Assembly (NCBI GenBank): GCA_903870415.1
Contig: CAIQDA010000005.1
Span: 1 to 34,615 of the forward strand
Reading direction: 5' to 3'
From: an uncultured delta proteobacterium
GTDB taxonomy: Bacteria > Myxococcota_A > Polyangia > Polyangiales > Polyangiaceae
Length of the DNA: 34,615 nt
A program made the position numbers and the translations under genes. Every line of letters begins with the position of its first letter. Position 1 is the first letter of the stretch. Of the stretch, positions 18,185 to 27,384 are shown in pieces. The notes under the pieces were generated by a model, which was not told the origin of the DNA, ran no database searches, and saw only the letters and a list, made by a program, of their open reading frames with translations.

Positions 18185-18575
18185 GTTTGGTGTCGTCACT
18201 CCCATCGGCGCGCGTCGCATGAAGGGACGATTCCTGATCCGTGTACTCTGCATGTAGCGATGCAAGCTCTCGACGTCGCATCCGTTGCCGATCGAATTCG
18301 ACAACTGCGCGGCACGTTTCGTCCATCTGCAATGCGGTGCTTGCGCTCACCACGGAATCGCGGACCGACGCGTCGCTCTTGCTCTCGACGACCGGGCGCG
18401 GCGCATCCACGTTGTGATCGCACATGCCTCCGCGCGAGGTTCGGTACGCGCTTCGGACGATGGTCGTTCGAAGTTGCGGCCTGTTTTTCCATGGAACGAC
18501 GAGCCTCGTAGCGCCTCGTCGTGGGTCGTCTCGTGCTTCGCGCGCGAAGCTTGCGAACCGGAATGGAGATGCAGA
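18185..18575. other. Long gap before the AgmX-like gene
   Basis: About 390 bases with no convincing gene in any frame. Codon bias is weaker than in neighbours, and frames shift from coding-like to not: a short run reading MQALDVASVADRIRQLRGTF starts at 18260. It might hold a decayed ORF, a long leader or regulatory DNA. It carries a one-mismatch copy of the TGCA motif at 18242-18252 (TGTACTCTGCA) and an exact copy at its right edge. Confidence 0.4.
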
Positions 18576-18580
18576 ATGCA
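18570..18580. promoter_or_regulatory. TGCAGAATGCA motif across an AgmX-like start codon
   Basis: Exact copy of the recurring 11-mer. The ATG of the downstream gene (18576-18578) lies inside it, and GGAG of the ribosome site abuts it at 18565-18568. It shares 15 bases (GAGATGCAGAATGCA) with the copy at 22942. A protein bound here would block translation or transcription initiation. This role is inferred. Confidence 0.4.
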
Positions 18581-20066
18581 AGAACATGAATTCGATTCGG
18601 TCGACGCACGGAGACGATCCGGGCCTTCTCAACGGACGAAGGAGCCGCCGTTCGCGGCGCTCGTGACGGTGTCGTGGGGCACCTATGCGCTCCTCGCGGA
18701 GGAACTCGCAGAAGGCGCGACGTTCACGTTGGGCGAAGGCGGCGCGCTTCCGCTTCCGGCGGGCGTGCTTGGGGGCGAATCCCTCGCGCTGCTCCGAGTG
18801 TCGCGAGGAGGGGCCGTGCGGCTGCGCGTGCATCCTGCCCTGAGAGGCGACGTGTCCATTGGCGGAAAGGCTGTCGATCTAGGCACTTTCGTGAGTTCCG
18901 TCCGCCCTGGCGCGTCCGAGCGATCGGGCGAAGTCGCGGAGGTTGTCTTGCCGGATGGGTGTGAAGTGCATCTATCCCTCGGAGCGTCGCTCTTTGCGGT
19001 TCACGTGACCGTGGGTGCGCGTACGGCGGGTTCCCCCATCGGTGTTGCGCGAAACCTGAGCCCATGGGCCCTTGCCATGGCGGCGCTCTCGTTCACCCTT
19101 CACGGGGCGCTGGTGGGTGTATTTGTATTCTACAGAGAGGCCATGGTTGCCGATGACTCGGGCACCGTGGACCGCGATCAAATCCTCTTCATGCGCGCCA
19201 TGCTCGCGAACGCGGCGGAGCGCGAACTCGAACGCCCGAACGCCGATGACGAAACGGTCCACGACGGGGAAAAAGCGGGCGGATCCAGCGTTTCTGCACG
19301 CGGACCCGCAGGAGCCTCGGGCTCAAGCACCTCGAAGTCTCCTCGCGGACGTCTTGCGATCGAGGGCCCCGCGGACACTCCGGAACCCCATGTGGCGCGC
19401 GAGCGTTTGCTTGCGCAGGCGGCGAACTTTGGCATGCTCGGACTGCTCCAAACTCCCCCGGACGGAGCGGCACTGGCCTCTCCCTTCGCGCGACCCGTTC
19501 TCGTTGCGGGGCGCGATTCAACCTCCGCGTCCGGTTCGCTCTTCGACGCGGACCCTGGCGACAGATTCGGCTCCGATGGGTTCGGCCCAGCGGGCTCGGC
19601 ACGTGGGGGCGGAGGCGAAGGCGACTTCGTGGGTCTCGACCACATTGGCACCGTGTTGCGCGGCAGCGGCGCCGGGCCAAACGCTGGCATTGGACCTCGC
19701 ACGACTGGCGGCGAAGGCGGGGCACACCGGCCGCGGGGGCCATCGCTTCGAGCGGCAAATGTGGAGTCGAATGGGCGCCTTCCGGCCGAGGTGATTCAAC
19801 GCACGTTGCGACGGCAGTCCGGTCGTTTTCGCTTTTGCTACGAGACGGGCCTCGCGCGAAATCCGAACCTGGCGGGGCGTGTGTCGATTCGTTTCGTCAT
19901 CGATCGCACGGGCAGCGTGAACCTCGCGCAAGACGCCGGAAGTGAGCTCGCCGACGCGGGTGTTGTGGCTTGCGTCGCGCGTGCCGTTGCCGATCTCACG
20001 TTTCCGCCGCCGCCCGACGGCATCGTGACCGTGACGTATCCGCTCGTCTTTTCACCGGGAAATTGA
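18576..20066 (+). CDS. AgmX/PglI-type envelope protein with TonB-like tail
   Basis: A 496-residue protein with the layout of myxobacterial AgmX-type proteins. A beta-rich cytoplasmic N-domain spans about 25-150. A single membrane helix spans 163-186 (LSPWALAMAALSFTLHGALV). A long Gly/Ser/Pro-rich periplasmic linker (about 215-400) includes ARGGGGEGDF. A TonB-like C-terminal domain from about 403 starts LPAEVIQRTLRRQSGRFRFCYETGL and carries the usual two cysteines (FCYE and VACVARAV). In Myxococcus, proteins with this tail include gliding-motility and envelope-spanning components, so it may link inner and outer membranes. The ATG at 18576 has GGAG seven bases upstream. Reading further up to 18285 lacks coding bias. 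Confidence 0.85.
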   Translation: MQEHEFDSVDARRRSGPSQRTKEPPFAALVTVSWGTYALLAEELAEGATFTLGEGGALPLPAGVLGGESLALLRVSRGGAVRLRVHPALRGDVSIGGKAVDLGTFVSSVRPGASERSGEVAEVVLPDGCEVHLSLGASLFAVHVTVGARTAGSPIGVARNLSPWALAMAALSFTLHGALVGVFVFYREAMVADDSGTVDRDQILFMRAMLANAAERELERPNADDETVHDGEKAGGSSVSARGPAGASGSSTSKSPRGRLAIEGPADTPEPHVARERLLAQAANFGMLGLLQTPPDGAALASPFARPVLVAGRDSTSASGSLFDADPGDRFGSDGFGPAGSARGGGGEGDFVGLDHIGTVLRGSGAGPNAGIGPRTTGGEGGAHRPRGPSLRAANVESNGRLPAEVIQRTLRRQSGRFRFCYETGLARNPNLAGRVSIRFVIDRTGSVNLAQDAGSELADAGVVACVARAVADLTFPPPPDGIVTVTYPLVFSPGN

Positions 20067-21072: not shown

Positions 21073-22815
21073 TCAGCGTCCCCTCGCCAACGCGAGGAGC
21101 CTCGCCGGTCCGATAGGCTCCTCGATCATCCACGGAACGACCGCGAGACGGGTCGCGTGCTGGCTCAAAACAATGGCCGTTTGCTCCATTTCGCTTTGGA
21201 TTCGTTGCTTCAGGCACGGGTCCCGTGACGTTGTGACGGCGAGCGTGGCGTTGATGACCCACGAGAAGGGCTCGATCGAGACGCGACGCAGGTCGCTTTG
21301 CACCCGTGCCGCCTCCGCGACGGGGGTTGGCTCTGCGAGCGTGACGATGATCACCTTCGTGAAGGAGAGGTCTTGGAGCGCCGCGAGTGGGGTCACGAGC
21401 TCGCCGGATTCGGCTTGCTCGGAGTACGAAGCGGCGGAGGCGAGGAGGAGGAGCGTCTGTCCGGCCGGCGCGGTATCGAGCACGACGAAGCTCTTGCGTG
21501 CCTGGAATATCGTTCGCACAAACGCCGCTGTAACCGCCAGTTCTTCGTACAACGGCGAGCGCAGGTCTTCGACGACCAACGCGCGCCCAGCTTCGTCGAG
21601 AGTGACCGATCGGATCGCCATCTCGCGCTCGCGGTAAGCCGCCGCCTCCGCCGCGGCGTCGATGCGTGCGAGGGTGAGATTCGCCACGTCACCGTCGACC
21701 GTCTCCGCCACATGCGCCGAGGGATCTATCGTGCTGAGCGTCACGGCGCGGCCTCGCGAGGCGAGCTCGACGGCGATCGACGCCGCAATCGTCGTCTTTC
21801 CAACGCCTCCTTTGCCCACCACGATGACGAGGCCGCGGCCAGGACGCTCAAGTTCGTCGATGAGCTTCGCGAGGGGCGAGGCCAATGGAATCGGATGCGG
21901 GGAAACGTTGCGCCGCAGCAGCGCTGACCGCTTATCGCTGAGGAGCGCGCGGAGGGCCACAAGGCCGACGACGACGTATGGACGGAGGGGAACGTGAACG
22001 GTCGGGCGCGAGGCGAGGTTGTCTGGCATTGCCCGAAGTGCCTCCGCACCGCGAGCTTCGAGCGCGAGCGCGATAGCATCCGCGCGTGCCTCCGCGGAGA
22101 AGACGGAGTTAACCACGAGGTGTTGATTCGTCATGCCGAGAGCCTCGATCGCGCGTGACGATCGACTTGCCTCACGAAGCGAGAGCGCTTCGGCGCGCAC
22201 CACGAGGACGACCGTCGTACGGGACGGGTCAACGAGCGCGTTCGCTGCGGCGGCGAAGCGCGGTTCTTGCTCCTTCAGGGCCGCGTGAGGCTCGAGGCGC
22301 GAAACGCCGTGAGATAAGCCGTGCAGAAACGCTGCCCAATCCCGAGGCAGCCGAAGGAGGCGCAGCGCGTGCCCGAATGGAGCCATGTCGAAGACGACGT
22401 GATCGTAGGCCTCGTTGCTCGCTCCCCCAGCGAGGAGTTCGACGAATTCGTCAAGGACTCCGACCTCGACGATGGTTGGGCCGGCGAGCTTTGCGCGAAG
22501 CTGAGCGAGTTCCACCGGCGTCGCCAAGGGCACCAACGGAGTGATGACGCGATCGCGGTAGGCCGTCGCCGCGCGTTCGGGGTCGATGATGAGCGCCCAG
22601 AGGTTCGCGACGCCTGCGATGGGGGCGGGGAAATTGGTGAGCGTGGAGCTCAAGACTTTTTCGAGGTCCGACGCCGGGTCGGTGCTGACGAGCAGCACGA
22701 GCTTGCCTGCTTCCGCCAGGCGAATCGCAGTGGCGCAGGCGAGCGCGGTCTTCCCGACGCCACCTTTGCCCGTGAAGAACAGGAACGGAGTCGCCTCCTC
22801 CAAGAACGTCGTCAT
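21073..22815 (-). CDS. Two-domain ArsA-family ATPase lacking metalloid cysteines
   Basis: A 580-residue pseudo-duplicated ATPase with the full ArsA layout. A1 has P-loop GKGGVGKT at 16-23 and A2 has the same motif at 334-341. The signature DTAPTGHT is degenerate as DMAPFGHA (143-150) and DTAPAGQT (447-454). Aligned by eye to plasmid R773 ArsA from memory, the three metalloid ligands Cys113, Cys172 and Cys422 are Thr114, Arg173 and Leu422 here, and His453 is Gln453. Only two cysteines remain (27 and 534), neither at those sites. No arsB/arsR/arsC/arsD is present. It is therefore probably not an arsenite pump subunit. A GET3-like client-handling or other anion role is possible. A TGCA motif lies 126 bases upstream, and the PEGA-TonB receptor gene precedes it. 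Confidence 0.9.
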   Translation of the reverse strand: MTTFLEEATPFLFFTGKGGVGKTALACATAIRLAEAGKLVLLVSTDPASDLEKVLSSTLTNFPAPIAGVANLWALIIDPERAATAYRDRVITPLVPLATPVELAQLRAKLAGPTIVEVGVLDEFVELLAGGASNEAYDHVVFDMAPFGHALRLLRLPRDWAAFLHGLSHGVSRLEPHAALKEQEPRFAAAANALVDPSRTTVVLVVRAEALSLREASRSSRAIEALGMTNQHLVVNSVFSAEARADAIALALEARGAEALRAMPDNLASRPTVHVPLRPYVVVGLVALRALLSDKRSALLRRNVSPHPIPLASPLAKLIDELERPGRGLVIVVGKGGVGKTTIAASIAVELASRGRAVTLSTIDPSAHVAETVDGDVANLTLARIDAAAEAAAYREREMAIRSVTLDEAGRALVVEDLRSPLYEELAVTAAFVRTIFQARKSFVVLDTAPAGQTLLLLASAASYSEQAESGELVTPLAALQDLSFTKVIIVTLAEPTPVAEAARVQSDLRRVSIEPFSWVINATLAVTTSRDPCLKQRIQSEMEQTAIVLSQHATRLAVVPWMIEEPIGPARLLALARGR

Positions 22816-22987: not shown

Positions 22988-25900
22988 TCAGTGTTCCGCG
23001 GCGATTCGCAAGGATAAAAGCAGGGTTCTCCCCTCCTGAGGAACCGTCGTTTCGCGCCATGCGGCGGCGGGGACCGTGGACGTGATCGCGTTGAAGAGGT
23101 TGTAGATTCCAAGCTTCGCATCGGCGGGCATGCCCGGAATCGGAACCGTGAGCACCGTGTCGAGGCGCACCGAGGCATCGGTCGTGGTGGCGCCGAGCAG
23201 GGACGGTGAGGGAAGTCGACGCCCGCCTTCGAGGGCTGTGCGGAGCGCAAACGATGATCCCGCGACAGAGAGAGGCGCGATGAACTTCATGCCCGCGAGC
23301 CAGCCAGGAACGTTCGTGCCGACGTGCACCTCGTCGCCGCTCTGAAACTGCTTGGAGACCGATGCCTGGGCAAAAAGCTGCATGGCGCGCGGGAGGCTCC
23401 ATCGAACCTCGGCCTCCACGCCCGCCACCGTGAGCACGTCCGGACTGTTCTTGAACTGGAAGGTCTCCGGCTGCACCTCGGCCAGCACGATGAGGTTTTG
23501 AATTCGGTTCGCGAAGACCGTCCCAAGCAGGGAGACGTTGGCGATGGCTTGGCGATGCTCAAGCTCCGCGCTCAAGATTTGCTCCGGCTCAAGGGGGCTA
23601 TTGGCGAGCCAACCGCTGCCCACGTAAATGCGCTCGATGGTCGTGGCCGCGCGGAACGCTTTGCCGAGGAGCAGCTTCGTCGTTCCTCCGGAAATTCGCT
23701 CGCTTACGATAGCCACGCGCGGCGAGGTAAAGAGCCAAAGGCTCGCATCGGCCACGCGCGGATCGTAGTCGAAGCGCGTTCCCAAGGTGACGTGCACACG
23801 CTCAACGGGGTCGAAGACGGCTTGCGCAAACGTGCCGCCGAAGGTGCCCCGATCCGTCGTGTTCAGCAGCGTTCCCTCGAACTCGTTTCCGGACTGCACC
23901 CGCGAGCGAAGTTGCGCGCGAACCTCCGCCCCGACCGACCCACGAACGGGGCCGAGAAGCGCCTCCCACCTCACCTCTGTTCCAAGGTTCGTGCCACGAA
24001 ACGCCTCAAATTCCAGGCCGATCGGCGCAGGGTAGGCGTAATGCCCGTCGTAGTTGTAGACGGTTCCAAACGCGCGCACGGTCAAGCGTCCCGCACCGAG
24101 TGTCGATTCGTGGCGCCCGTCGAACGAGAAGCGCGTTTCAGCCGTCGTCGATCGCGGGTCGTTGATGATGACGTCGTAGGGCGCCAGCGAGAGCGTGCGC
24201 TCGTAGTGATGGCCAAAGACGCGGAGATGAAATGCGTCCGAATCGAAGCCAAGGAGCACCGACGTGGCGCGCGCCGACGGGCCCCCGGGAAGCCACCCGT
24301 CGACCCCTTTTCCACGCGCGTCGACGCCGCCGTCTGTGGCCCCCGCGCTTGCTCGAAGCTCTGGAAAATATTCGGATTTTCCCGTCACTTCCACCGCTGA
24401 AACCGACGCGTAGAGGTTTCCGCCCGCCGCCGGAACTTCCGCGCGCACCCCCACGCGACCGTGCCCTTCTCCGAACGCGGTGACGCTTGCACCGAGCTTC
24501 GTTTTGCCGCTTCCGGTGCGCGTGATGATTTGGATCGTGGCCAAAAATGCGCTCGTGCCGAAGAGCGCCGACGAAGGGCCGCGGATGACTTCGATGCGTT
24601 CCACGTCGTCGATGGACGCGAGGGTTTGGATGCCTGGGCAAGCGCCGCCGTCGTACGGGTTGTTCAGCGGCTTGTCGTCGAGGAGCACCAAGATGCGCGA
24701 GCAGTACGCCGCGGGCGAGGAAAAACCCCGCATATCGGCCGACTGGGAGAAGCCGTCGTCGGAGACGAACATGCCTCGAACGCCCCGCAGCGCTTCGGTG
24801 AGTGTGGGGTAACCGAAGGCCTCGATCTCCGAACGCGTGATGACCGTGACCGAACCAGGAGCCACACGCGCTTCTTCGATGCGACGCGAAGCGCCCGCGA
24901 CGTCTTCGCGAAGCTCCAGATCGACTTCGACTGCGGTGGTGTCATTGCCTGCAATCTGCACGGATTCGGCGTGGGACCCGTAGCCGGGAGCCCGCACCTC
25001 GACGCTGTGATCTCCTGCGGGAACGCTCATCGAAAGAGGACTCGACCCGACCGCTCGCCCATCGACGTAGACTTGCCCGTAGGGGTGACTCACGACCGCA
25101 AGCGTTCCCTGAAGGCGCGCGAGCGACACTTCGACGCGTGCTCGTGCGTTCGGGCGGACCAGCACCGGGATGCGCGCTTCGCCGTGATGAGGCGCTCGTG
25201 CCACGATCACATGAGGGCCAGGTGGTAGCGACGCGGTGCACGGCAAGTCCGTGCAGAGTGCATCGGTGCCCTCTTCGAGTCGAAGGCTTGCATCGCGATG
25301 TGACCCGACAAATTCCAGCGTTCCCTCAATGAGCTTCAGCGCAGGCGTCAGCTTGGTTCGCGACCCCTTTGCGAAGAACCGCGACTCGGAAGCAGGCGTT
25401 TCGTAACCGTCGCGCTCGACGAAGACCGCGTGGGTACCTTCGGGAAGTGCGAGCACGCAGGGCGTCGTGCATCTTGATCCAAGGTCGCGGCGATCGACGT
25501 ACACGGCTGCACCCGCCGGCTCGCTGCGAATCTCGAGGACCGCAACCTTGCGTTCGAGCTCCTGCTTGAGCGCGGCGGCCGTGCTGCGAAGTGCCTCGGG
25601 AGCCGACGGCGAGTCGAGGACGGAAAGGTAGCGAAATGCCTCGGTTTGAAGGCCGACAGCGTCGTAAGCAATGGCCAAGTCGTAGGCCACGCGCGCGTTG
25701 GGGGCCATGCGGTACGAGGCCAAGAAGTGCGCCACGGCCGCCTGCGCATCGTGCTGCTGAAACGCTCGAACACCGAGCCGAAACTGTGCCTCGGCCTCGT
25801 CCGCGTCGGTGGTGCTGGCGGCTTGCGCGAGGCAACTCCAAAGCAGCGCGGCGCATGCGCAGCGGAGTACGGACGCGGCGCGCGCGGCGACCCCGGTCAA
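22988..25900 (-). CDS. TPR-PEGA-TonB-dependent receptor fusion
   Basis: A 970-residue outer-membrane protein. The signal peptide is about 1-28 (ending LAQAA). A helical TPR-like region covers about 33-115. Three PEGA-type beta domains cover about 118-190, 191-263 and 264-330; the first two carry close Cys pairs (144/148 and 216/221) likely to form disulfides. The receptor plug covers about 340-462 (SVTVITRSEIEAFGYPTLTEALRGVRGMFV, then IEVIRGPSSALFGTSAF), and the 22-strand-type barrel runs to the end with IYNLFNAIT. TonB receptors take up siderophores, metals, cobalamin or glycans; the ligand cannot be told. The PEGA/TPR part replaces the more usual N-terminal signalling or carboxypeptidase-like domain. 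Its ATG overlaps the kinase stop by four bases (ATGA). Confidence 0.9.
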   Translation of the reverse strand: MTGVAARAASVLRCACAALLWSCLAQAASTTDADEAEAQFRLGVRAFQQHDAQAAVAHFLASYRMAPNARVAYDLAIAYDAVGLQTEAFRYLSVLDSPSAPEALRSTAAALKQELERKVAVLEIRSEPAGAAVYVDRRDLGSRCTTPCVLALPEGTHAVFVERDGYETPASESRFFAKGSRTKLTPALKLIEGTLEFVGSHRDASLRLEEGTDALCTDLPCTASLPPGPHVIVARAPHHGEARIPVLVRPNARARVEVSLARLQGTLAVVSHPYGQVYVDGRAVGSSPLSMSVPAGDHSVEVRAPGYGSHAESVQIAGNDTTAVEVDLELREDVAGASRRIEEARVAPGSVTVITRSEIEAFGYPTLTEALRGVRGMFVSDDGFSQSADMRGFSSPAAYCSRILVLLDDKPLNNPYDGGACPGIQTLASIDDVERIEVIRGPSSALFGTSAFLATIQIITRTGSGKTKLGASVTAFGEGHGRVGVRAEVPAAGGNLYASVSAVEVTGKSEYFPELRASAGATDGGVDARGKGVDGWLPGGPSARATSVLLGFDSDAFHLRVFGHHYERTLSLAPYDVIINDPRSTTAETRFSFDGRHESTLGAGRLTVRAFGTVYNYDGHYAYPAPIGLEFEAFRGTNLGTEVRWEALLGPVRGSVGAEVRAQLRSRVQSGNEFEGTLLNTTDRGTFGGTFAQAVFDPVERVHVTLGTRFDYDPRVADASLWLFTSPRVAIVSERISGGTTKLLLGKAFRAATTIERIYVGSGWLANSPLEPEQILSAELEHRQAIANVSLLGTVFANRIQNLIVLAEVQPETFQFKNSPDVLTVAGVEAEVRWSLPRAMQLFAQASVSKQFQSGDEVHVGTNVPGWLAGMKFIAPLSVAGSSFALRTALEGGRRLPSPSLLGATTTDASVRLDTVLTVPIPGMPADAKLGIYNLFNAITSTVPAAAWRETTVPQEGRTLLLSLRIAAEH
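25252..25262. repeat. TGCAGAGTGCA motif inside the receptor gene
   Basis: The one TGCAGARTGCA copy that lies within a gene. It encodes part of the second PEGA domain around Cys216 and is in the coding frame, so it may be a chance product of codons. It is listed for completeness of the motif set. Confidence 0.2.
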
Positions 25901-27384
25901 CGGTCCTCAAGCAGCGTCGGCGCGTGACCAGACGCTCCCGGCGACGGCACCTTGGGCAGCGCATGGGAGACAGGCGCGCTGGCAGGCTTCGGTGCCGGAG
26001 CGAGCGTTTTCTCAGGCGAAAGAAGGCCCGAACCTGCGTCTTCATGCGCCATGGCCACGGGAGAATCGGTGTCGATGACCCGCGCGATCGTCGCGGCGGG
26101 GTCGGGCGAAAGCCCCACGGACGCGGCGGGCGTTGAAGGCGCGAGCGAGACTCCTTGTGGCGCGTCGAGCGTCGTAGCTTCAGCGCCTTTGGACCTCATG
26201 AACAGCGCAGCGGCACCGGTGGCCAACACCATGGCAAGAGCCAATGCCAGGCCCACACGCGTGCCGCGCCGCTCGACCGGAAGGGACGCGCTCGCAACTT
26301 CGGCGGAGGGCGACGCGTCCAAGGGGGCGCTGGGGCTTGTGGACTGAGCGTGCGACGAGGCCGCCGCGTCGATGAGGACGGTTTGAGAGAAGGCTCCCGA
26401 GTCGAGCGAATTTCCAGTCGATCGAAAGGACTTTCCGCGAACCGTCGCCACCGCGCCCGCGGCCAGGCACGGCACGAGGAGCTTCGATTCACCGGCAAGC
26501 TCAAAGGGCGCGAGGGCCGTCGCGAGTTCGTCCATGGAGGAGAAACGCGCGTGGCGATCTTTCATCAGGCATCGGTCGATGACTGCCGCGAACGCAGGAT
26601 TCACTCCGGGGACGCGATCGCCCAGCGGCACATGCGGCTCGGCGGAAATCTGGCGAATCAACAGGGAGAACGTTGCCCCGTTGAACGGCCGCTCCCCGCT
26701 CACAAGTTCGTAAAGCACCACGCCGAGCGACCACACGTCGGCGCGGCCATCGAGATCGTCGAGGCCGTCGATCTGTTCCGGCGCCATGTAGTCCGGCGTT
26801 CCTGCGATCGATCGGGTTGCCATGCGCTCTTCGGCGCCAAAGCCCAGCATCAACTTGGCGACGCCGAAGTCGAGTACTTTTGCAGACACATCGCCGCGCG
26901 AAAGCACGACCATCACGTTCGATGGCTTGATGTCCCGATGCACCACGCCCGCGCGATGAGCTTCCCCCAGCGCATCGGCCGCCTGCATCGCAATCGTTGA
27001 GGCATTGCTGACCGAAAGAGGCCCATGGGTGCGCAGCCATGTATCGAGGTCGAGGCCGTCGAGGAGCTCAAGGACGATGCAAGGAAGCCCCTTCACGGTG
27101 CCCGCGTCGAGCACGCGCGCCACATGCTCGCTGCGAACCTTCGCGAGCGTGCGCGCCTCGCGGATGAAGCGAGCCTCGGCGCGAGGATCGTCCGACGCAC
27201 CGACGAGCAACTTCACCGCGACGGGCTGATCCAGCAGCACCTGGCGCGCGGCAAACACCAACCCCATGGCCCCCGCCCCAAGGAGCTCGCCGAGCTCGTA
27301 GCGGTCCAGCAAAAGCTCCCCCGGCTTCAGCCCAAGCTTGCCAAGCGCCGCGCTCGCCAGCGCATCGATGTCATCCGCGCACAT
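25897..27384 (-). CDS. Membrane-anchored Ser/Thr protein kinase
   Basis: A 495-residue eukaryotic-like (PknB/Hanks) kinase. Kinase domain at about 29-295: Gly loop LGAGAMG 35-41, VAVK with Lys58, HRDIKPSNV (149-157, catalytic Asp151), DFG 172-174, APE 201-203 and DVWSLGVVLYELVSGERPF. All catalytic residues are present, so it should be active. A Ser/Thr-rich juxtamembrane stretch (about 310-370) could be autophosphorylated. One helix at about 375-397 anchors it, leaving a Pro/Ala/Ser-rich periplasmic tail of about 100 residues without a recognisable sensor. Its TGA overlaps the TonB-receptor ATG, so kinase and receptor are made together. The ATG at 27384 has only a weak ribosome site. Confidence 0.94.
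   Translation of the reverse strand: MCADDIDALASAALGKLGLKPGELLLDRYELGELLGAGAMGLVFAARQVLLDQPVAVKLLVGASDDPRAEARFIREARTLAKVRSEHVARVLDAGTVKGLPCIVLELLDGLDLDTWLRTHGPLSVSNASTIAMQAADALGEAHRAGVVHRDIKPSNVMVVLSRGDVSAKVLDFGVAKLMLGFGAEERMATRSIAGTPDYMAPEQIDGLDDLDGRADVWSLGVVLYELVSGERPFNGATFSLLIRQISAEPHVPLGDRVPGVNPAFAAVIDRCLMKDRHARFSSMDELATALAPFELAGESKLLVPCLAAGAVATVRGKSFRSTGNSLDSGAFSQTVLIDAAASSHAQSTSPSAPLDASPSAEVASASLPVERRGTRVGLALALAMVLATGAAALFMRSKGAEATTLDAPQGVSLAPSTPAASVGLSPDPAATIARVIDTDSPVAMAHEDAGSGLLSPEKTLAPAPKPASAPVSHALPKVPSPGASGHAPTLLEDR

Follow-up and report, generated by a model that had tools for sequence, protein, structure and literature searches.

A conserved pair of Ser/Thr kinase and TPR-PEGA-TonB receptor genes points to a possible new surface-to-kinase signal route in myxobacteria

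Contact between an inner-membrane protein and an outer-membrane receptor is known from the FoxA/FoxR system, in which the C-terminus of the inner-membrane protein meets the N-terminal domain of a TonB receptor (PMC11637429). Control of a membrane Ser/Thr kinase through its periplasmic part is known from PpkA, whose partner is outer-membrane-linked or periplasmic (PMC6082577). Taken together, FoxA/FoxR and PpkA/RtkS show that both halves of the scheme proposed here exist separately (PMC11637429, PMC6082577). Because each half has a precedent we rate the scheme as a variant of trans-envelope signalling and not as categorically new. In the open-access literature, no paper was found that joins PEGA domains or Hanks-type kinases to TonB receptors in this way.

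The gene pair was found in the window, which is the whole stretch of 34,615 nucleotides that was analysed and is part of a 4.7-Mb draft genome. Its features are as follows.

25897..27384, minus strand: Hanks-type Ser/Thr kinase of 495 aa with a single transmembrane segment and a C-terminal tail (open reading frame, Pfam)
26530..27300, minus strand: kinase catalytic domain, residues 29-285 (Pfam Pkinase)
26200..26256, minus strand: predicted transmembrane segment, residues 377-395 (hydropathy 2.27)
25900..26199, minus strand: predicted periplasmic Pro/Ala-rich tail, residues 396-495 (sequence; poorly conserved even within the genus)
25900..25917, minus strand: proposed C-terminal docking peptide of the window kinase, TLLEDR-COOH (consensus [DE]-I-[RK]-x-x-R in the family)
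25897..25900, minus strand: 4-base overlap TTGA, with kinase stop TGA and receptor start TTG (sequence)
22988..25900, minus strand: TPR-PEGA-TonB receptor of 970 aa (open reading frame, Pfam, AlphaFold2)
25820..25900, minus strand: signal peptide, about residues 1-27 (sequence; helix 4-24 in the model)
25556..25813, minus strand: TPR domain, residues 30-115, proposed site for the kinase peptide (five model helices; TPR_2 in relatives; TPR matches in the PDB)
25658..25696, minus strand: helix A of TPR2, residues 69-81, with R70, D74 and I77 (model; 70 and 77 co-vary with the peptide)
25331..25543, minus strand: PEGA 1, about residues 120-190, with Cys144/Cys148 (Pfam, sequence, model)
25115..25324, minus strand: PEGA 2, about residues 193-262, with Cys216/Cys221 (sequence, model)
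24911..25111, minus strand: PEGA 3, about residues 264-330, without Cys (Pfam best stretch 265-329; model)
24521..24871, minus strand: plug domain, about residues 344-460 (Pfam Plug 345-452; model)
22991..24499, minus strand: beta-barrel, about residues 468-970 (Pfam; model; closest solved folds BtuB and Cir)

As in FecA/FecR/FecI and FoxA/FoxR/FoxI, the TonB receptor has an additional periplasmic domain at its N-terminus, which would meet the C-terminal part of a single-pass inner-membrane partner. However, the STN domain of those receptors is replaced here by a TPR and a PEGA rod, the anti-sigma factor by a Ser/Thr kinase and the folded C-terminal domain by a six-residue C-terminal peptide, and the sigma factor has no counterpart among the neighbours scanned. 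The preliminary description had called the route unlike the FecA/FecR/sigma type, which is correct for the parts (STN, FecR and ECF sigma factors were all absent from the proteins scanned locally) but not for the geometry, which is the same as in FoxA/FoxR. The control proposed here, acting through the periplasmic part of a membrane Ser/Thr kinase, is likewise that of PpkA with TagQRST (Pseudomonas) or RtkS (Serratia). The partners there belong to the type VI secretion pathway, being lipoproteins or soluble proteins, whereas here they are TonB receptors, and no C-terminal docking peptide is described in the text consulted, whereas a conserved one is present here.

Three other systems share part of this layout. 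TPR domains of the Hop/Hsp90 type bind the C-terminal peptide EEVD in their concave face and have a conserved Asn at position 6 of helix A of TPR2. The proposed docking shares with them the C-terminal peptide, the concave face and the conserved Asn (residue 74, which is Asp in the window), although the end is an Arg with Ile at -5 instead of EEVD and the contact would be extracytoplasmic. PASTA kinases (PknB/Stk1) are also single-pass Hanks kinases, whose C-terminal part lies outside the cytoplasm and senses the envelope, but no PASTA repeats were detected in the window kinase with Pfam or NCBIfam, and the NCBIfam model NF033483 matches nothing beyond its kinase domain, scoring 237 bits where the cut-off is 450. 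TonB itself has the same inner-membrane anchor, Pro-rich periplasmic span and C-terminal element docking to the N-terminal region of the receptor, whereas here the protein has a cytoplasmic kinase and the TonB C-terminal domain was not found in it (Pfam, NCBIfam).

The receptor is a TonB-dependent receptor by its plug and barrel, and Pfam and the AlphaFold2 model agree on the fusion of signal peptide, TPR-like helices, three PEGA domains, plug and barrel that had been described before. Pfam recognised PEGA (PF08308, E 5.6e-29; score 100.3 bits, cut-off 20.8), Plug (1.9e-20) and the TonB barrel (3e-16). The model, made from an alignment of 25 family members, has a mean pLDDT of 82.6; in it a signal helix is followed by the five helices of the TPR, by three beta domains resembling PEGA (120-328) and by the plug and the barrel. 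Its closest folds in the PDB are BtuB and Cir (TM-score 0.79-0.84, target-normalised, with about 16% identity), and its TPR region matched designed TPRs (TM 0.84 to 1na3); moreover, Pfam TPR_2 is recognised in relatives. Two of the three PEGA domains carry Cys pairs, as had been noticed earlier (144/148 in PEGA 1, 216/221 in PEGA 2, none in PEGA 3), and the pair of PEGA 1 is specific to this lineage, position 144 being Gly in 94% of the relatives. A conserved stretch resembling EVxAASR precedes the plug at about 333-339 and looks by eye like a TonB box. The STN domain is absent, since Pfam at E values up to 0.1 gives PEGA, CarboxypepD_reg, Plug and barrel only. No ligand is assigned, because the nearest solved folds are only about 16% identical and the window receptor scores below the cut-off of every NCBIfam receptor family.

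The upstream gene encodes a Hanks-type Ser/Thr kinase (Pkinase, E 4.6e-46) with the complete set of catalytic motifs, as K58, E76, HRD 149-151, K153, N156 and DFG 172-174 are invariant among 26 paired kinases. The membrane kinase with a Pro-rich tail of the preliminary description was recovered: there is one transmembrane segment near 377-395, followed by a tail of about 100 residues with 15% Pro that is predicted to be periplasmic from hydropathy and from the signal peptide of the receptor. Among paired kinases the length of the tail varies between about 40 and 197 residues, and apart from Pro/Ala richness and the C-terminal end there is little that the tails share. Many of them include a PEGA-like stretch, which is absent from the tail of the window kinase. 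The overlap of the two genes had been given as ATGA; it is indeed one of four bases, but these are TTGA and the receptor starts with TTG and not ATG, this TTG being the first ATG, GTG or TTG downstream of the preceding in-frame stop.

Homologues of the receptor are present in 84 of 183 genomes of the order and in 82 of 377 genomes of the phylum sample. Pooling gave 147 distinct fused TPR-PEGA-TonB receptors, comprising 111 with a kinase directly upstream, 27 without and nine that could not be judged. A Ser/Thr kinase on the same strand is thus directly upstream of 111 of the 138 judgeable receptors, a recurrence beyond chance, and the pair is kept far outside one strain, in several families and classes of Myxococcota, which answers the survey that had been asked for. 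The called gap between kinase and receptor has a median of 6 nt and is 50 nt or less in 62 of 72 cases, and no fusion of kinase and receptor without a stop was seen among the loci read. In a name-labelled sample a kinase is adjacent to 27 of 37 fused receptors versus 2 of 29 plain TonB receptors, and both of the latter were later recognised as members of a second class (class B, below). All the named carriers of fused receptors are Myxococcota (Sorangium, Polyangium, Labilithrix, Myxococcus and Corallococcus); hits outside the phylum in the same name-labelled sample consist of plug and barrel only, with one exception in a metagenome-assembled genome (MAG). This MAG, labelled Klebsiella pneumoniae (L216, CAMAWH010000006.1), contains a typical myxococcal kinase/PEGA-TonB pair, and its label is almost certainly wrong. 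Another locus (L143, G376:C12) carries a tandem of two fused receptors separated by about 7.6 kb; the kinase that lies about 2 kb upstream of the first may serve both.

The paired kinases end alike, with D or E at position -6, I or L at -5, R or K at -4 and R at -1, and little is conserved further upstream. The core of this pattern fits 110 of 111 paired kinases: I, L or F occupies position -5 in 110 of 111, and at position -1 there are 109 R and one H. Among control kinases from three genomes, the loose pattern was found in 1 of 51 and the strict pattern in none of the 31 tested. The end of the window kinase, TLLEDR, compares with SLLEER in a relative of the same genus, the remainder of both tails having diverged.

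Some fused receptors are orphans, and those of Myxococcus and Corallococcus have no adjacent kinase. A search with the pattern in M. xanthus AM003 returned a kinase ending in GLGIKTGR (L363:4432-6105) that adjoins ABC-transporter-like genes, whereas the fused receptor (L235) is on another contig. This kinase is 51% identical over its full length to a receptor-adjacent kinase of an Archangiaceae MAG that has the same ending, and it is a likely trans partner of the orphan receptor.

In class B, kinases with an end resembling GYKxxPY are encoded directly upstream of TPR-TonB receptors without PEGA. Such loci are L365, L290, L286, L347 (M. xanthus), L371-L374, L377, L382, L386, L388, L393 and L399, and in other lineages the class B kinases end in GYMPLPDDF. 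The genome of the window also encodes a class B TPR-TonB receptor (G000:C256:5259-7769, L375), with no adjacent upstream kinase recognised. In both classes the peptide has a hydrophobic residue followed by K or R, and the TPRs of many members have N70, N74 and R77. When the two classes are compared, the common elements are therefore the kinase C-terminal peptide and the partner TPR, and PEGA looks like a spacer present in one class. In addition, a secreted TPR-PEGA protein without plug or barrel (L364:3713-5176) follows a kinase ending in ERDNPY and is possibly a third kind of TPR partner.

The peptide was compared with 821 receptor columns in a phylogeny-aware test for which the tree was built without the TPR and PEGA 1. 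Mutual information over all receptor columns placed the pair of peptide position -6 and residue 77 at the top (Z 6.5), and a second pair, -4 with residue 70, was found on inspection. An acidic -6 goes with a basic residue 77 in 80 pairs, whereas with a non-basic 77 it is acidic in only 2 of 17; position -4 is basic in 84 of the pairs with a non-basic residue 70 but in none of the ten whose receptor has a basic residue 70. These pairs are related and not independent, their effective number being about 62 at an identity cut of 62%. With acidic and basic classes that were chosen after the first contingency tables had been seen, the acidity of -6 against residue 77 gave P 8e-8 and a basic -4 against residue 70 gave P 1.3e-7, both ranking first of 821 columns (the next being 4e-4 and 2.6e-4, respectively). 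The best of 209 kinase-domain control columns treated in the same way reached P 4.4e-7 against any receptor column, and the margin of the peptide pairs over it is only about three- to five-fold. None of the tail positions -7 to -16 fell below 1e-5.

One helix (69-81) carries both residue 70 and residue 77, which correspond in the Pfam alignment to TPR positions 2 and 9, standard ligand-contact positions of TPRs. Residue 74 of the same helix is Asn in 96% of the family. In the window both partners are divergent (TLLEDR with R70, D74 and I77) and the consensus contacts are not present as such; a non-consensus peptide together with non-consensus TPR residues fits the co-variation. An AlphaFold2 model of a natural in-frame read-through of kinase tail and receptor, in which there is no free C-terminus and the signal peptide acts as linker, gave the peptide block a pLDDT of 68 versus 41-53 for its flanks, which is only suggestive of docking. 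Since -6 and -4 change together with residues 77 and 70 of one TPR helix, the kinase tail most likely docks into the TPR and not into PEGA. The contact across the periplasm that the preliminary description had suggested gains support from a conserved and co-varying C-terminal peptide, but its likely site has to be moved: on the receptor the co-variation points to residues 70 and 77 of the N-terminal TPR in place of the PEGA domains, and on the kinase the proposed docking element is the last six residues and not the Pro-rich part. PEGA was rejected as the contact because its columns show no comparable co-variation and because class B receptors lack it altogether.

We therefore propose, as the probable reading, a two-protein trans-envelope unit in which the kinase is docked through its C-terminus to the receptor TPR and the state of the receptor alters kinase activity. 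The kinase would be an inner-membrane protein with a cytoplasmic catalytic domain, and its disordered Pro/Ala-rich tail, which in many relatives has a PEGA of its own, would span the periplasm so that the last six residues could dock in the concave face of the N-terminal TPR of the receptor. The rod of three PEGA domains would hold this TPR away from the outer membrane. Binding of a ligand or TonB-driven movement of the plug may then alter how available or how clustered the docked tails are, and with that the dimerisation and activity of the kinase, and the kinase would phosphorylate targets in the cytoplasm. What the sequences themselves give is the set of parts, the conservation of the gene pairing and of the peptide, and the co-variation of the peptide with two residues of one TPR helix, and this supports docking; the membrane topology, direct binding as such and every step after docking, with the direction of the signal, its ligand and its targets, we infer.

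The same pairing, peptide and co-variation would also arise if docking only placed or stabilised the kinase or linked the two membranes, with an activity blind to the receptor. There is a parallel in Serratia, where the kinase PpkA depends for its stability on RtkS, which binds to its periplasmic domain (PMC6082577). Nevertheless, a tether needs neither an intact plug and barrel nor a motif-complete kinase, both of which suggest sensing, and we consider this explanation unlikely. It is still less probable that the kinase controls the receptor from the inside, for instance by pulling or releasing the N-terminal module to gate transport. The geometry is that of TonB (inner-membrane anchor, Pro-rich span and C-terminal docking to the N-terminal part of the receptor), but a cytoplasmic kinase domain cannot phosphorylate the receptor, and no energy-coupling element was noticed by eye in the kinase transmembrane segment. 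Simple co-regulation, in which the two genes share an operon and respond to the same condition with no physical contact, would agree with the short gaps, which are common in operons, and with the orphan receptors. This is very improbable, as it leaves unexplained why, behind an unconserved tail, 110 of 111 kinases keep the peptide, why it is absent from other kinases, why it persists in the M. xanthus trans kinase and why it co-varies with two TPR residues. Finally, an origin of the conserved kinase end as a by-product of the downstream ribosome-binding site can be dismissed, since, although the LEDR codons of the window contain GAGG a few bases before the TTG, the peptide is as common where the gap is at least 60 nt (30 of 30 kinases), its Arg is written with all six codons and the M. 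xanthus trans kinase keeps it, so that selection on the protein is indicated.

If the pairs do signal through a docked and receptor-controlled kinase, an outer-membrane receptor would be assigned to a definite subset of membrane kinases, and TonB receptors could feed Ser/Thr phosphorylation. With the peptide and the two TPR positions, a single binding assay and a handful of point mutations are enough to check this claim; the peptide can also serve to find trans partners, as with M. xanthus here. A wider idea, which we hold to be evenly balanced between right and wrong, is that Myxococcota possess a general addressable wiring, in which many inner-membrane Ser/Thr kinases would end in a short address peptide (DI[RK]xxR, GYKxxPY or maybe further ones) that is read by the N-terminal TPR of a cognate TonB receptor or periplasmic protein, surface ligands thereby driving Ser/Thr phosphorylation in the cytoplasm. 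Such wiring would be a further mode of TonB receptors beside transport and sigma/anti-sigma control, and would provide inputs for some of the kinases of the myxobacteria, whose kinome is very large (two complete myxobacterial genomes each gave at least 150 kinase-domain matches).

The proteins scanned around the pair were the kinase, an ArsA-type ATPase, an unknown 277-aa protein, a methyltransferase, a GltG-like protein and QueG. Pfam detected neither FecR nor an ECF sigma factor among these locally scanned window proteins, and no type VI secretion genes were present among the window genes scanned. The ArsA-type ATPase, of 580 aa, is a tandem protein with two P-loop halves, encoded at window positions 21073-22815, 172 nt downstream of the receptor. 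The GltG-like protein (18285-20066) lies about 3 kb from the receptor and has an AgmX/PglI C-terminal domain (83 bits, cut-off 40), which weakly resembles the C-terminus of TonB.
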